Shown in pieces: positions 127-8,507 of a DNA stretch of 8,825 nucleotides. This DNA is from a bacterium. GTDB lineage: Bacteria > ARS69. The stretch's first letter is position 1, and the number at the start of each line of letters is the position of its first letter. A program made the position numbers and the translations under genes. Location: contig JALGZO010000507.1 of NCBI GenBank assembly GCA_025774865.1, positions 1 to 8,825 of the forward strand, given 5' to 3'. A model generated the notes under the pieces. It did no database searches. It saw only the letters and a list, made by a program, of their open reading frames with translations, and had not been told where the DNA came from.

Positions 127-1075
127 ATGCGAATCGTCTTCTGCGGAACTCCCGAAAGCGCGGTACCGAGCCTCGATGCGATCGTCGCGCGGAAATCGGC
201 TTGGGAAGTCGTCGCCGTCCTCACGCAACCCGACCGGCGCGCCGGTCGGGGGCTCCGGCCGAGTCCGAGCCCCGTCAAAGAGCGTGCGCTCGCGCACGAC
301 CTGGCGGTGCAAACGCCTTCGCGGCTCCGGGACGTTCGCGAGACTCTCGAGTCGCTCGCGCCCGACGTCATCGCCGTCGTGGCCTACGGGCACATTTTCC
401 GAAAGTGGCTCCTCGAGCTACCGCCGCTGGGTTGCGTCAACCTGCACTTCTCGCTGTTGCCGCGCCACCGGGGTGTGGCACCCGTGGCGTGGGCGATCCT
501 CGCGGGAGACGAGGAGACGGGCATCACCACGATGCGAATGGACCGCGGGGTCGATACCGGTCCGCTGTTTCGCCGAGAGGCGGTGCCGATCGAGGGGGAC
601 GACACGCGGGGCTCGCTGACCGCGCGCCTCGCCGAGCGTGGCGGACCGCTGCTCGTGGAGACCCTCGCCGAGCTCGAGGCGGGGAGGGTGCGACCGCAAG
701 ACCAGGACGAGACGCGCGCGACTTACGCGCGCAAGCTCGAGAAGGAGGACGGCCGGGTCGACTGGCGCCAGCCCGCCACGGAGATCGAGCGCCGGGTCCG
801 GGGTCTGAACCCGTGGCCGGGGGCGTTCACGACGTTCCGAGGGACGATCCTCAAGGTTCACGCCGCCGACGCGATGTCGGGAGAGTTGCCGGCGGGCGCG
901 GTTCGCGAGCGGGACGGCCACGTGGTCGTCGGCACGGGAGACGGACTCCTCGGCCTCCGGGAAGTCCAGATGTCGGGCAAGCCCCGATTAGATGTCGGGC
1001 AAGCCCCGATTGTCGGGAGAGGCATGGTTTCGAGGGGCACGCGCCCGCGACACCGAAGCTCTCGGCGTGGAATGA
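127..1075 (+). CDS. fmt: Methionyl-tRNA formyltransferase (frame shifted near its 3' end)
   Basis: Fmt transfers a formyl group from 10-formyltetrahydrofolate to the amino group of Met-tRNAfMet in the cytosol. The N-terminal Rossmann-like domain starts MRIVFCGTPE. The active site is visible: N105 and H107 in VNLHFSLLPRHRG, and D143 in GVDTGP, equivalent to the E. coli N106/H108/D144 set. The tRNA-side loop and linker TYARKLEKEDGRVDW (199-213) and RGLNPWPGA (225-233) are present, followed by the C-terminal OB-like domain. ATG 127 is the start, with GGAG at 111-114 upstream. The 22-bp duplication at 968-1011 breaks the frame after R287. With one unit removed, the frame continues LSGEAWFRGARARDTEALGVE and stops at TGA 1073-1075, giving 308 residues, a normal family length. 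The given end is this ancestral stop, which is out of frame in the sequence as supplied. Confidence 0.9.
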
Positions 1076-2421
1076 GCCGCCCGACGGCCCGAGAGATCGC
1101 GCTCAGGTCTTTTCTCGACTGGGACGCGGGCCTCGAGACCGCGGACGAGCTCCTCGCTCGACACCTCGACGAGGCGGCCGTCCGAGGGCGCGAGCGTGAC
1201 CTCGCGTGGCAGCTGGTGCGCGGCGTCTTCCGGTGGCGGGGTCGCCTCGACTGGCAGCTGGCCGAGCTCGTGAGTCGGCCGCTCGAGAGTCTCCACCCGC
1301 CCATCCGGTGGATCCTCCGTCTGGGCCTCTACCAGCTCGAGCATCTCGATCGCGTGCCCGCCCACGCCGCGGTCGACACGTCAGTGGGGCTGGCGAAGCG
1401 GTTCGGACACCGGGGCTCGGCCTCGCTCGTGAACGCCGTACTGCGAAACGCGCCCGACGGTCTGGCGCGAATGACGCCGCCGGATGCCTCCGACGACCCG
1501 GTGGGCCATCTCGTGGCCCGGACGAGCCATCCCGCCTGGATGCTCGAGCGTTGGCTCGAGCGCTTCGGCTTCCGAAAGACCCTGAATCTCGCGGCGGCGG
1601 GCAACGAGCAACCTTCCTTGACCCTTCGCGTCACCTCCGACAGAGTCGACGCCGCCGGGCTTCTGGAGGATCTGCGCGGGCAGGGAATCGAGGCTGAACC
1701 GGGGTGTCTCCTGCCGGGTCACGTGCGCGTGATCGAGGGCTGGCGCCGCGAGCTGCGCCCGATCCTGGAGGCGGGTATCTGCGTCGTCCAGGACGAGGCG
1801 GCCGGATTGGTCGCGCACCTCGGATTACCCGCGCTCGGAGCCCGCATTCTCGATGTCTGCGCGGCCCCCGGCGGGAAGGTGTTCGCGTTCGCGGAGCTCT
1901 GCGGGGATGCGCAGATCGTCGCGTGCGATGTATCGTCGCGGCGGCTCGACCGGCTGCGCGAGACGGCGGAGCGCCTCGAGCGTCGCGTCCATCTCGTGGT
2001 CGCGGACGGGCGACATCCCGCGACGCGGGGAGGATTCACACGCGTGCTCGTCGACGTACCATGCACGAACACCGGCGTCCTCGCGAAGCGCGCGGACGCG
2101 CGCTGGCGGCGGCAACCCGAGGACGTTCCTCGACTCGCAAAGCTCCAGGGGACGATCCTCGACGCCGCGCGCGAGCAGGTCGGTCCGGGCGGGGTCCTCG
2201 TCTATTCGACGTGCTCTCTGGAGAGGGAGGAGAACGAGGACGTGATTCGGGACTTTCTCGAGCGGCACCCTTCGGACGAGCTCCTGCCAGCCTCCAACGT
2301 CCTTCCCCCGGAAGTCGTCGACGGTGAGTTCCTTCGTACCGATCCGTCCGCGTGGCCGGTGGACGGGGCGTTCGCGGCGGCGATCCGGCCGCATACCTCG
2401 AAGCTCAAGGTGGTCTCGTGA
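127..2421 (+). CDS. Fmt-RsmB fusion reading frame created by a 22-bp tandem duplication
   Basis: As sequenced, one frame of 764 codons runs through both fmt and rsmB with no stop. Residues 1-287 are a normal methionyl-tRNA formyltransferase. Residues 288-315 are a non-homologous, Arg-rich linker. Residues 316-764 are a complete RsmB beginning at its own expected Met. The linker exists only because a perfect 22-bp duplication (968-1011) adds 22 bases, which is 1 modulo 3, and moves the Fmt frame into the RsmB frame. If translated, the product would be an enzyme pair that never normally occurs in one chain, with Fmt lacking its last 21 native residues. It could be a real mutation, a slippage variant, or a sequencing or assembly error. 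I regard the two moieties as ancestrally separate genes and describe each in its own entry. Confidence 0.7.
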   Translation: MRIVFCGTPESAVPSLDAIVARKSAWEVVAVLTQPDRRAGRGLRPSPSPVKERALAHDLAVQTPSRLRDVRETLESLAPDVIAVVAYGHIFRKWLLELPPLGCVNLHFSLLPRHRGVAPVAWAILAGDEETGITTMRMDRGVDTGPLFRREAVPIEGDDTRGSLTARLAERGGPLLVETLAELEAGRVRPQDQDETRATYARKLEKEDGRVDWRQPATEIERRVRGLNPWPGAFTTFRGTILKVHAADAMSGELPAGAVRERDGHVVVGTGDGLLGLREVQMSGKPRLDVGQAPIVGRGMVSRGTRPRHRSSRRGMSRPTAREIALRSFLDWDAGLETADELLARHLDEAAVRGRERDLAWQLVRGVFRWRGRLDWQLAELVSRPLESLHPPIRWILRLGLYQLEHLDRVPAHAAVDTSVGLAKRFGHRGSASLVNAVLRNAPDGLARMTPPDASDDPVGHLVARTSHPAWMLERWLERFGFRKTLNLAAAGNEQPSLTLRVTSDRVDAAGLLEDLRGQGIEAEPGCLLPGHVRVIEGWRRELRPILEAGICVVQDEAAGLVAHLGLPALGARILDVCAAPGGKVFAFAELCGDAQIVACDVSSRRLDRLRETAERLERRVHLVVADGRHPATRGGFTRVLVDVPCTNTGVLAKRADARWRRQPEDVPRLAKLQGTILDAAREQVGPGGVLVYSTCSLEREENEDVIRDFLERHPSDELLPASNVLPPEVVDGEFLRTDPSAWPVDGAFAAAIRPHTSKLKVVS
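968..1011 (+). repeat. Perfect 22-bp tandem duplication inside fmt
   Basis: Bases 968-989 and 990-1011 are identical, beginning AGATGTCGGGC and ending CCCCGATT. The unit length is 1 modulo 3, so one extra copy shifts the reading frame. Each unit contains a small inverted repeat, TCGGG and CCCGA around a 5-base loop (973-987 in the first copy), which could promote replication slippage. A single copy restores the expected Fmt C-terminus exactly, so the duplication is the derived state. Confidence 0.97.
1072..2421 (+). CDS. rsmB: 16S rRNA (cytosine-C5) methyltransferase RsmB
   Basis: RsmB (Fmu/Sun) methylates C967 (E. coli numbering) of 16S rRNA using S-adenosylmethionine. Counted from ATG 1072 the protein has 449 residues, normal for the family. 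Residues about 5-135 are the NusB-like RNA-binding domain, and about 145-445 the methyltransferase domain. The SAM-binding motif is ILDVCAAPGGK (259-269). Motif IV is DVPCTNTGVL (328-337), with the product-release Cys331. Motif VI is YSTCSLEREENED (378-390), with the catalytic Cys381. The ATG shares ATGA with the ancestral fmt stop, so the gene was probably translated by coupling to fmt; there is no good ribosome-binding site of its own. In the supplied sequence this Met is residue 316 of a continuous fmt-rsmB frame, so independent translation from here is uncertain, although the domain assignment is firm. Confidence 0.9.
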   Translation: MSRPTAREIALRSFLDWDAGLETADELLARHLDEAAVRGRERDLAWQLVRGVFRWRGRLDWQLAELVSRPLESLHPPIRWILRLGLYQLEHLDRVPAHAAVDTSVGLAKRFGHRGSASLVNAVLRNAPDGLARMTPPDASDDPVGHLVARTSHPAWMLERWLERFGFRKTLNLAAAGNEQPSLTLRVTSDRVDAAGLLEDLRGQGIEAEPGCLLPGHVRVIEGWRRELRPILEAGICVVQDEAAGLVAHLGLPALGARILDVCAAPGGKVFAFAELCGDAQIVACDVSSRRLDRLRETAERLERRVHLVVADGRHPATRGGFTRVLVDVPCTNTGVLAKRADARWRRQPEDVPRLAKLQGTILDAAREQVGPGGVLVYSTCSLEREENEDVIRDFLERHPSDELLPASNVLPPEVVDGEFLRTDPSAWPVDGAFAAAIRPHTSKLKVVS

Positions 2422-4889: not shown

Positions 4890-6350
4890 ATGCTGAGGCA
4901 ACTCGAGCGCCCGCGTCGCGCGGGTTCGACCCGGGCCACGTGGATGAGCGGGCCGTTGTGCGCCGTCGTGCTCATCGTTCTGTCGTGCTCGTCACCGCCC
5001 GCCCGCCCTTCCATCGTGATCGTGGTACTGGACACGGTGAGGCGTGACTTTACCGGTCTTGGCTCGTCGGTCCCGCAGGGCCGCGCGTGGGCTCCCCACC
5101 TCGACGAGCTGGCGCGGGAGGCGGCCGTGTTCCCCCGCGCGTGGGCGAACGCTCCGTGGACCGTGCCGTCGCACGCCTCGCTCTTCACCGGTGAGCTGCC
5201 GGCCGCCCACGGGTGCACTTCCTTGCGACCGAGGTTCGACGCGCCGACCCCGGCACTCGCGGAGGTCCTCGGCGCAGCCGGCTACCGGTCCGCCGCCTTC
5301 TTCAGCAATCCCTGGCTCTCCGACGAGGTGACCGGGCTGCTGCGCGGCTTCGACGAAAAGCTAGCGGCCGAAACGCCCGGCCCGGTCGGTGAGCCCGGCC
5401 AAGACCAGGGTGGAGCGGCGACGCTTCGCAACGTCGACGAATGGCTCGGGCGCCGCGGAGACGAGCGTCCGTTCTTGCTCTTCGTGAACTTCTTGGAAGC
5501 GCACGCGCCATACGATCCGCCGAAATCGTCGCGCGACGAGCTCTTGCCGGACTTGTCATACGACGAGCGCGTCACGACGGAATGGATGCTCGACTTCCAG
5601 GCCGGACTGACGTCTCCCGAGGCAGTCGACTGGCCGACGGTCCGCCGCCTCTACGGCGGCGACGTGCACTTCGCCGACGCGCTGCTCGGGGAGCTGATCA
5701 GGCTCCTGCGGAAACACGACGTTTTCGACGACGGCGTGATCCTCGTCACGTCGGATCACGGGGAGAACCTCGGCGAGCTCGGTTACGTGAACCACCAATT
5801 CCGAATCGACGAAGCGCTGCTGGCCGTTCCGCTCCTCCTGAGAGCGCCCGGTCGCGTCGAACCCGGGGAGCGGAGCGATCCCGCCATGCTGACCGACGTC
5901 TTCGCCACCGTCCTGGAACTCGCCGGCGTGAAGCAGGAGTTGCCGCGCCACAGCCGTTCGCTGGTGAAGCCGGCGGAAACGTCGGAACCTCGGGCGCTGT
6001 TCGCGGAGTACACGGGTGGACCGCCGGCTCTCGTCCGGTATCTGCAGCAGAGAAATCCCCGGCTTGATCCGACTCCGTTGCGGGAGAGCCTCCGCACCGT
6101 ACGGTGGGGGGATCTTCGATTGACCGTGGGCGGGGGCGGGGTGGCCATGCTTCACGATCTCGCGGCCGATCCGCAGCAGAGAGTGGACATAGCGGCCGAG
6201 GCGGAGGAATCCGTCCGAACGCTCGCCGAACAGCTGGCCCAGGCGATGGGCCCCGCTGGACGTGGAGACGAGCCCGAGCGGACCGACGGCGCCCCCGACG
6301 TGAGCAAGAGCACGAAGGAGAGGCTCGAGAGTCTTGGCTACGTTCACTGA
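4890..6350 (+). CDS. Sulfatase-fold (alkaline phosphatase superfamily) lipoprotein with Thr nucleophile
   Basis: The protein has 486 residues. An Arg-rich n-region is followed by a short hydrophobic stretch and a lipobox-like VLSC (Cys33), so it is probably a lipoprotein facing the periplasm. ATG 4944 (Met19) is an alternative start that keeps the lipobox; neither start has a clear ribosome site. Superfamily metal ligands are visible: Asp48 (VVLDTVRRD), Asp289-His290 (TSDHGEN) and His302 (VNHQF). The nucleophile position is Thr91 in PWTVPSHASLFTG. Formylglycine sulfatases need C/S-x-P-x-R here, so this is probably not a sulfate ester hydrolase. Thr nucleophiles are known in NPP phosphodiesterases, EptA and LtaS, which makes phosphoester chemistry more likely by inference. 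It ends ERLESLGYVH, a tail shared with its neighbour. The gene overlaps the next one by 17 bases. Confidence 0.85.
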   Translation: MLRQLERPRRAGSTRATWMSGPLCAVVLIVLSCSSPPARPSIVIVVLDTVRRDFTGLGSSVPQGRAWAPHLDELAREAAVFPRAWANAPWTVPSHASLFTGELPAAHGCTSLRPRFDAPTPALAEVLGAAGYRSAAFFSNPWLSDEVTGLLRGFDEKLAAETPGPVGEPGQDQGGAATLRNVDEWLGRRGDERPFLLFVNFLEAHAPYDPPKSSRDELLPDLSYDERVTTEWMLDFQAGLTSPEAVDWPTVRRLYGGDVHFADALLGELIRLLRKHDVFDDGVILVTSDHGENLGELGYVNHQFRIDEALLAVPLLLRAPGRVEPGERSDPAMLTDVFATVLELAGVKQELPRHSRSLVKPAETSEPRALFAEYTGGPPALVRYLQQRNPRLDPTPLRESLRTVRWGDLRLTVGGGGVAMLHDLAADPQQRVDIAAEAEESVRTLAEQLAQAMGPAGRGDEPERTDGAPDVSKSTKERLESLGYVH

Positions 6351-7680
6351 CCTGCGCCTCGCGCCGCTCGCGCTCCTCGCGTTCGCCCCGTCTTGCGATC
6401 GCTCGCCTCCGCCCGCGCGCAACGCCGTGGTGATTCTGCTCGACACCTGCCGCTACGACGAGGTCGGCCGCACGACGCGACAGGGTCCGGTCACCCCGAG
6501 TCTCGACGCGTTCGCCGACGGTGCGACGCGCTTCACGAAAGCGACGTCGCCGGCGCCCTGGACGCTCCCCGCGGTGGCGACGCTCCTGACGTCCGCGCAT
6601 CCCACCGTACACGGAGCGAAGGGTCATTACCCCGACTTCACCGGCCTGCGTGACGTTCCGACCGGAGCCGAGGGCATGGCCCGATCCGGAATCCGGACCT
6701 GCGCGATCGTGAACTGTCCGTTTCTGGATCCGGTGCTGGGACTCGGTCGCGGCTTCGATCGCTTCGACTACTACGCCGACCACGGCCCGGAGATTCGGAC
6801 CGCGGGCGACGCACTCGATGCCGCCATCGACTGGGTACGAGAGAATCGTGACGAGCGGTTCTTCTTGTTCGTGCATCTCTTCGACGCGCACATGGACTAC
6901 GAGCCGGCGGAGCCGTTTCGCTCACGCTTCCTCGAGGGCGAGCCCCGTCCGTTCGACGGCCCCTTCGCAGGGGTCGGCCGGTGGCGTCGGTCGGGAGCCT
7001 CGTCGGCGGTGCGTCGATACGCTCGCGCCCTCTACCGCGCGGAGATCGCGGCGATCGACGATGCGATCGGGAGTTTCTTGACCGATCTGGAAGGACTCGG
7101 AGTGATCGAGGAAACGGCGGTCGTGATCACGTCCGACCACGGCGAGGAGTTCTGGGAGCACGGCCAGTTCGAGCATGGCCACACTCTGTATGAGGAGCTT
7201 CTGCACGTGCCACTGATCGTCCGCGCGCCCGGCCGCGCCACCACGCCCGAGGTGCGTGCCCGGGTCGGCTTGATCGACGTGATGCCGACCCTCTACGAGC
7301 TCCTCGCTTTGCCGCCGATCGAGAGCTTCGAGGGTCGATCGCTCGTCCCGCTGCTGGACGGTCGGACGCCGTCCGGCCCTCGAAACCGGTTCAGCGAGTC
7401 GATCCTCTACGGCCCGGAACGGAAGGCCGTGACGAGCGAGCGTTTCAAGTTCATTCGTTGCAAAGAGGATGGAACCCGTGCGCTCTTCGATCTCGAACAG
7501 GATCCCGGGGAGGCGCGCAACCTCATGGAGGAAGAGCCGGAGCGCGCGCGGGAGATGGAATCGCAGCTCGACGACTGGGAACGGCTCGAGGAGCGGCGAG
7601 CCCAATCGACGCCGGCGGCCGGGGTGATCGACATGGAGAACGTGATGAGCAAACTGCGGTCGCTGGGGTACGCGGACTGA
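6334..7680 (+). CDS. Second sulfatase-fold lipoprotein with Thr nucleophile (tandem paralogue)
   Basis: The protein of 448 residues starts at TTG 6334, overlapping the previous gene by 17 bases. AAGGAGAGG lies upstream at 6315-6323, so translation is probably coupled. The N-terminus is short and hydrophobic and ends in APSCDR; Cys21 could be lipidated, although Pro at -2 is a poor lipobox, and Asp follows at +2. Metal ligands are Asp37 (ILLDTCRYD), Asp268-His269 (TSDHGEEFWEH) and His283 (EHGHTLYEE). The nucleophile position is Thr77 in PWTLPAVATLLTS, so the CxPxR sulfatase signature is absent, and the usual Arg/His is Val81. FDAHMDYEP (183-191) carries the superfamily His186. The C-terminus is MSKLRSLGYAD, like the LESLGY tail of the upstream gene. 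It is a paralogue of that gene, most similar around the metal sites. The substrate is unknown; an extracytoplasmic phospho- or related ester is inferred. Confidence 0.85.
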   Translation: MATFTDLRLAPLALLAFAPSCDRSPPPARNAVVILLDTCRYDEVGRTTRQGPVTPSLDAFADGATRFTKATSPAPWTLPAVATLLTSAHPTVHGAKGHYPDFTGLRDVPTGAEGMARSGIRTCAIVNCPFLDPVLGLGRGFDRFDYYADHGPEIRTAGDALDAAIDWVRENRDERFFLFVHLFDAHMDYEPAEPFRSRFLEGEPRPFDGPFAGVGRWRRSGASSAVRRYARALYRAEIAAIDDAIGSFLTDLEGLGVIEETAVVITSDHGEEFWEHGQFEHGHTLYEELLHVPLIVRAPGRATTPEVRARVGLIDVMPTLYELLALPPIESFEGRSLVPLLDGRTPSGPRNRFSESILYGPERKAVTSERFKFIRCKEDGTRALFDLEQDPGEARNLMEEEPERAREMESQLDDWERLEERRAQSTPAAGVIDMENVMSKLRSLGYAD

Positions 7681-7736
7681 AGTGAAGGACCCATCCGGTG
7701 ACGGGGCGGCGCCCCCATGCTACCTTGCGCCGAGAT

Positions 7737-7741
7737 GGAGG
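7737..7741 (+). promoter_or_regulatory. Ribosome binding site deciding the rpe start
   Basis: GGAGG sits five bases before ATG 7747. It overlaps a second in-frame ATG (7735), and another in-frame ATG lies at 7717. The spacing and the family N-terminus (VAPSLLAADF) both support 7747. Confidence 0.7.
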
Positions 7742-7746
7742 ATGTC

Positions 7747-8421
7747 ATGAGTCGCCCGGTGCAAGTCGCGCCCTCGCTCCTGGCCGCGGACTTCGTGGCC
7801 CTCGCGGATTCCGTCCGTGAGGTCGAGGAAGCCGGCGCCGATCTCCTTCACCTCGACGTCATGGATGGTCAATTCGTGCCGAACATCTCGTTCGGCCCGG
7901 TTGTCGTGGAAGCGGTGAAGCGCGTCGCGCGGCTGCCCCTCGATGTTCATCTGATGATCGACGATCCGATCCGGTACGTGGACGCGTTCGCCGACGCGGG
8001 CGCCGAGTTCCTGACCGTGCACGTCGAAGCGTGTCCCGACGTCGCCGCTACTCTCGAGGCGATACGGTCTCGCCGGGTTCGGCCGGGGATCACCCTCCGG
8101 CCGCGCACCCCGTTCGCGGACGTCGAGCCGTTCCTCGCCGCCGTCGATTTGGTGCTCGTCATGACGGTGGAACCGGGATTCGGCGGGCAGGCGTACCTGC
8201 CCGACCAGGAGCCGAAGCTCTCTCGCGCCCGCGAGCTCCGCTCCGACTCCGGCCTCGACTACCACATCGAGGTCGACGGCGGTATCGGCGCCGAGACCGG
8301 TCCCCGGGCCGTCGGGGCCGGTGCCGACATCCTCGTCACCGGATCGGCGCTCTTCGGGTCCCGCGACATCTCGGGGCTCATCCGGGGCTTTCATGCGCTC
8401 GGAGGGGCCGCTGCCCGGTAG
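7747..8421 (+). CDS. rpe: Ribulose-phosphate 3-epimerase
   Basis: Rpe interconverts D-ribulose 5-phosphate and D-xylulose 5-phosphate in the pentose phosphate and Calvin pathways, in the cytosol. The protein has 224 residues from ATG 7747, a normal length for this (beta/alpha)8 barrel. Family motifs appear in order: VAPSLLAADF (7-16); LHLDVMDGQFVPN (34-46) with metal-binding His35 and catalytic Asp37; HLMIDDP (68-74) with His68; MTVEPGFGGQ (139-148); VDGGI (176-180) with catalytic Asp177; and the phosphate-binding VTGSALFG (197-204). All expected catalytic and metal residues are present, so it should be active. It lies 66 bases after the second lipoprotein gene on the same strand, and may be read from that transcript or from its own weak promoter. 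Confidence 0.96.
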   Translation: MSRPVQVAPSLLAADFVALADSVREVEEAGADLLHLDVMDGQFVPNISFGPVVVEAVKRVARLPLDVHLMIDDPIRYVDAFADAGAEFLTVHVEACPDVAATLEAIRSRRVRPGITLRPRTPFADVEPFLAAVDLVLVMTVEPGFGGQAYLPDQEPKLSRARELRSDSGLDYHIEVDGGIGAETGPRAVGAGADILVTGSALFGSRDISGLIRGFHALGGAAAR

Positions 8422-8441
8422 GGTGGGTGCCCGCCCGGCCG

Positions 8442-8507
8442 CGGGATGCTTCCCCCGCTCCGCGCGGGGAGCGCTCGGCCCGACCCCGGGATGCTTCCCC
8501 CGCTCCG
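8442..8507. repeat. Direct repeat pair A, 21 bp (8442-8462 and 8487-8507)
   Basis: The two copies are identical over 21 bases, beginning CGGGATGCTTCCC, with a 24-base spacer. The inner TGCTTCCCCCGC also occurs inverted as GCGGGGGAAGCA at 8565-8576, so the copies can pair with that site. In the first copy CGCTCC (8456-8461) can also pair with GGAGCG (8468-8473). Confidence 0.85.

Follow-up and report, generated by a model that had tools for sequence, protein, structure and literature searches.

Methionyl-tRNA formyltransferase (Fmt) and the methyltransferase RsmB share one open reading frame in this bacterial contig, and the question raised by the locus is whether that frame reflects a maintained joint enzyme, a recent mutation, or a faulty join in the assembly. 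The window (the whole stretch of DNA analysed, 8,825 nucleotides) comes from a single draft genome (785 contigs; estimated contamination, 8.3%). Lineage comparisons covered five genomes of a phylum-level group, each from a different genus.

As assembled, the 3′ end of fmt contains two back-to-back, 100% identical copies of the 22-bp unit AGATGTCGGGCAAGCCCCGATT (Table 1), where about 1.5e-7 perfect tandems of period 20 to 100 would be expected by chance in the window. The Fmt frame runs into rsmB without a stop, and the resulting 764 codons, uninterrupted over both genes, carry Formyl_trans_N, Formyl_trans_C, NusB, RsmF-B_ferredox, and Methyltr_RsmB-F together (Pfam); both the perfect units and the 764-residue frame had been described in a first-pass annotation and were borne out here. 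The copies are perfect and adjacent, their length is not divisible by three, and a single-copy ancestor can be reconstructed (see below). No microhomology was found at the unit borders (968-1011), and simple slippage at a border repeat was rejected for that reason.

Table 1. Coordinates of features at the fmt-rsmB junction
Feature	Position	Strand	Basis
fmt (methionyl-tRNA formyltransferase), residues 1-288 in native frame	127..990	+	Pfam Formyl_trans_N/Formyl_trans_C; TIGR00460
First 22-bp unit	968..989	+	sequence
Second 22-bp unit; its length, 1 mod 3, moves the fmt frame	990..1011	+	sequence
Eleven new residues (DVGQAPIVGRG), the sole stretch that is neither Fmt nor possible RsmB	991..1023	+	translation
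Native Fmt C-terminal tail MSGKPRLSGEAWFRGARARDTEALGVE, now out of frame; TGA stop at 1073-1075	992..1075	+	alignment
Purine-rich Shine-Dalgarno-like stretch GTCGGGAGAGGC ahead of ATG 1024	1012..1023	+	sequence
rsmB from probable native start ATG 1024 (alternative, ATG 1072)	1024..2421	+	domains, TIGR00563, relatives
Fused Fmt-RsmB frame, 764 codons, in the assembled sequence	127..2421	+	open frame

Translated in the fmt frame starting at the second unit, the DNA yields a family-like tail followed by a TGA. This restored tail was 44 to 48% identical to the Fmt tails of three family relatives (G002, G003, and G004), with G, K, AW, GAR, and LG invariant in all four aligned sequences (pattern K..AW.RGAR..LG). 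The comparison of the locus in relatives, which the first-pass annotation had proposed, found one unit and two genes in two members of the same family, G002 and G003 (fmt of 309 and 307 codons, respectively, then a separate rsmB). The fmt of G004 ends normally, and its contig stops short of most of rsmB; the fusion is thus not common to related genomes. Because the second unit opens onto a family-like tail and the two relatives have single-unit, separate genes, the single-unit state is, judged from these sequences, ancestral. The earlier proposal of a frame-shifting duplication of a one-unit ancestor is supported, with its recency probable. Translation also agreed that one unit would give an Fmt of 308 residues, ending on a TGA that overlaps ATG 1072. 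That the Fmt C terminus is replaced stands as well, but the earlier counts do not: 20 Fmt residues are lost rather than 21, and 27 residues rather than 28 precede Met316.

The fusion follows from the way the two genes overlap. Going upstream from ATG 1072 in the single-unit form, one meets no stop in the rsmB frame for 1,056 nt, a distance that spans all of fmt; the corresponding open stretches of G002 and G003 reach −940 nt and −454 nt, respectively, relative to the fmt stop. Since the rsmB frame is open across fmt, any insertion of 1 mod 3 in fmt would fuse the pair in this organism, provided that no stop precedes the shift. Taken alone, the fused frame is therefore no sign that a joint enzyme was selected for.

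RsmB scored above the curated threshold (TIGR00563, 307.5 bits against a cut-off of 269.05, positions 1-433 of 437; NusB, ferredoxin-like, and methyltransferase domains present), and rsmB is single in the genome by a TIGR00563 search. Its probable start lies within fmt. In G002 and G003, an ATG sits at −55 nt relative to the fmt stop, and from there to the point at which RsmB homology begins the rsmB frame has no other ATG, GTG, or TTG; these relatives thus offer no other reasonable start. G004 has a GTG at the same place. In the relatives, GGAGG or AAGGAG is found a few nucleotides ahead of this start, where the window has GGGAGAGGC. ATG 1024 of the window, which lies downstream of the duplication, aligns with the −55 start of G002 and G003, and the residues that follow it, MVSRGTRPRHRSSRRG, align with the RsmB N termini of the relatives. 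Most simply, the linker from Met300 (ATG 1024) would be the native N terminus of RsmB, encoded by the same DNA as the Fmt tail but in a different frame, and only 11 residues of the linker are new. The linker is rich in arginine because it overlaps the fmt tail in a second frame. The first-pass annotation had seen the duplication as joining two activities through a new basic linker; this view did not hold, as the linker from Met300 matches the native RsmB N termini of relatives. ATG 1072 is a second possible rsmB start, also 3′ of the duplication. With its start sites downstream of the duplication, RsmB is probably still made as a free protein from its own start or starts.

An overlap of about 55 nt between rsmB and fmt was seen across the lineage (window, 1024-1075; locus L002, 1570-1624; locus L003, 1522-1576). 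The conserved rsmB start of the lineage and its Shine-Dalgarno sequence sit inside the codons of the fmt tail; among other bacteria checked, several have an overlap of 4 nt.

The consequence for Fmt is probably a loss. The window Fmt scored 266.7 bits with TIGR00460 (cut-off, 201.5; positions 1-299 of 315), with its N-terminal catalytic and C-terminal domains present, and was the only match above the cut-off in the genome. The native frame holds through residue 288, and the last 20 residues are lost. The structure predicted for residues 1-330 of the window protein was confident to about residue 290, with pLDDT below 50 at 297-304 and 308-330, and the fused protein had no helix at the tail position, so that a complete Fmt C-terminal tail is absent. 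The Fmt of a relative, predicted from the same aligned set, had a confident helix at 293-299 and pLDDT of about 91 to 93 to residue 310. These predictions are taken as supporting evidence only, because the lack of aligned homologues for the altered tail itself lowers confidence. Deletions of about 18 to 20 C-terminal residues reportedly lower the activity of Escherichia coli Fmt strongly. Fmt function is probably weakened in the fused protein.

The explanation that we favour, to which we give a little better than an even chance as a whole, is that of a real and recent duplication in the sampled strain. The 22-bp duplication would have caused a +1 shift from the fmt frame to the overlapping frame of rsmB, itself stop-free throughout fmt; with no stop there, the fmt stop would be skipped and a fused frame would result. 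Fmt residues 289-308, with the C-terminal helix, would be replaced by the 11 new residues and then by the RsmB N terminus. Translation begun at fmt would yield an 84-kDa fusion whose Fmt part is probably weakened, and translation begun at ATG 1024 or ATG 1072, both past the lesion, would yield free RsmB. On the most economical reading, the fusion is incidental to the overlap of two GC-rich genes and was not selected as a union of two activities. Counting against this explanation, the lesion falls in the only strong Fmt match of the genome, which is unexpected for a successful strain, the borders have no microhomology to suggest simple slippage, and the case rests on one fragmented and partly contaminated draft.

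The quality of that draft bears most directly on whether the second unit exists at all, since contig ends or a gap fill joined without merging a 22-base overlap would leave two units where the true DNA has one. Fragmentation and contamination would favour such a join, as would the exactly intact gene pair that results from deleting one unit, the position of the lesion in a conserved and usually important gene, and the unit length, which we take to be near short assembly k-mers. Set against it, the ORFs are intact over the rest of the contig, and a survey of 48 other contigs of the genome, 389 kb of readable sequence in all, found no other perfect tandem of period 16 to 53, which argues that there is no systematic class of such joins. 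Perfect tandems of 10 to 150 bp were few in the same 389 kb (periods 11 to 15, plus one of 54), and 400 kb of G003 gave a similar picture. Frame-split homologous genes were rare and no more common here (2 of 170 pairs) than in the better assembly of G003 (2 of 159). These surveys argue against a systematic assembly fault and not against one bad join. We slightly favour a recent mutation over an assembly error, with about two thirds of our confidence on a real duplication, all its readings together, and about one third on an artefact. A perfect 54-bp tandem duplication was observed at 5317-5426 of locus L051, near the end of contig C5 of the same genome.

Were the DNA real, the frame could also be read as a working chimera, of one-step origin through overlapping open frames, that couples initiator-tRNA formylation to m5C methylation of 16S C967 in one chain. 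Both partners serve translation initiation and are often neighbours, every catalytic domain is present by sequence, the Fmt core is confidently predicted to residue 290, and a def-fmt fusion in Exiguobacterium was found to be functional (PMC12690207). A maintained enzyme of this kind is nonetheless very improbable: the fusion is absent from all other lineage genomes with a readable junction, the units are still 100% identical, and the Fmt tail helix is lost in the predicted structure. Nor was it seen elsewhere, with 0 of 55 same-strand pairs fused among 80 loci from named genomes, 0 of 23 further distinct neighbouring pairs fused when checked directly among searched genomes, and no other stop-free match spanning Fmt and RsmB among the matches listed in 98 and 386 genomes, lists that leave out weaker matches and so set a bound. 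Equally hard to credit is the reading that the duplication lowers Fmt as a reversible switch, or under selection for its loss (a peptide deformylase inhibitor being one such pressure), and that it reverts when a unit is lost. Mutations in fmt do confer actinonin resistance (PMC5954217; PMC12690207), and tandem duplications within wchA abolish the pneumococcal capsule and are counted as able to revert (PMC4022640), but here there is one perfect duplication in one genome and no sign of a mixture of unit counts, of repeat arrays in relatives, or of selection of this type.

Three genomes with large open-frame values (G005, G079, and G117) were rejected as natural fusions; direct translation showed stops between the genes, and the measure reads through stops. 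In four others (G028, G036, G315, and G195), one or two stops separate fmt from an rsmB that is in frame with it. At four loci (L005, L207, L208, and L209), the two genes share a frame and the fmt stop is the sole stop before rsmB, so that one codon change would fuse them.

Returning to the favoured duplication, its closest counterparts place it as a new instance of an already known kind, and no new system is revealed. Gene order and strand in the window are those of the fmt-rsmB neighbourhood of many bacteria (ATGA or longer overlap), and rsmB lies in an overlapping frame here as there, its start falling 4 or 55 nt ahead of the fmt stop in several loci; the difference lies in the 22-bp duplication, which puts the fmt stop out of frame. 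The Exiguobacterium def-fmt gene likewise has fmt in one frame with an adjoining gene and is described as genus-wide and tested as functional (PMC12690207), which indicates that fmt tolerates being joined to a different neighbour. By contrast, the window fusion occurs in one genome, its partner is RsmB and not Def, and the join is at the Fmt C terminus, with loss of the Fmt tail. For the literature on methionyl-tRNA formyltransferase, fusion, and RsmB, the available part of PMC12690207 describes def-fmt and not an Fmt-RsmB fusion. The wchA duplications (PMC4022640) resemble that of the window in being short, gene-altering, and reversible in principle, whereas in the window the shifted frame enters an overlapping next gene.

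If the DNA is real, the locus offers a clear example of overlapping GC-rich genes fusing by one small mutation with the downstream start kept, and a plausible first step toward the birth of a fusion protein. If it is an artefact, it cautions that a single short duplicated join may be all that underlies a fused ORF in a draft genome.

Between rsmB and rpe, the window holds two adjacent long ORFs on the forward strand that overlap slightly (4890-6350 and 6334-7680). Their translations, inspected by eye, resemble sulfatase or phosphatase-type hydrolases. Directly after the rpe-like ORF (7717-8421) lie imperfect GC-rich repeats of about 20 bp (8439-8507; 3.1 copies).
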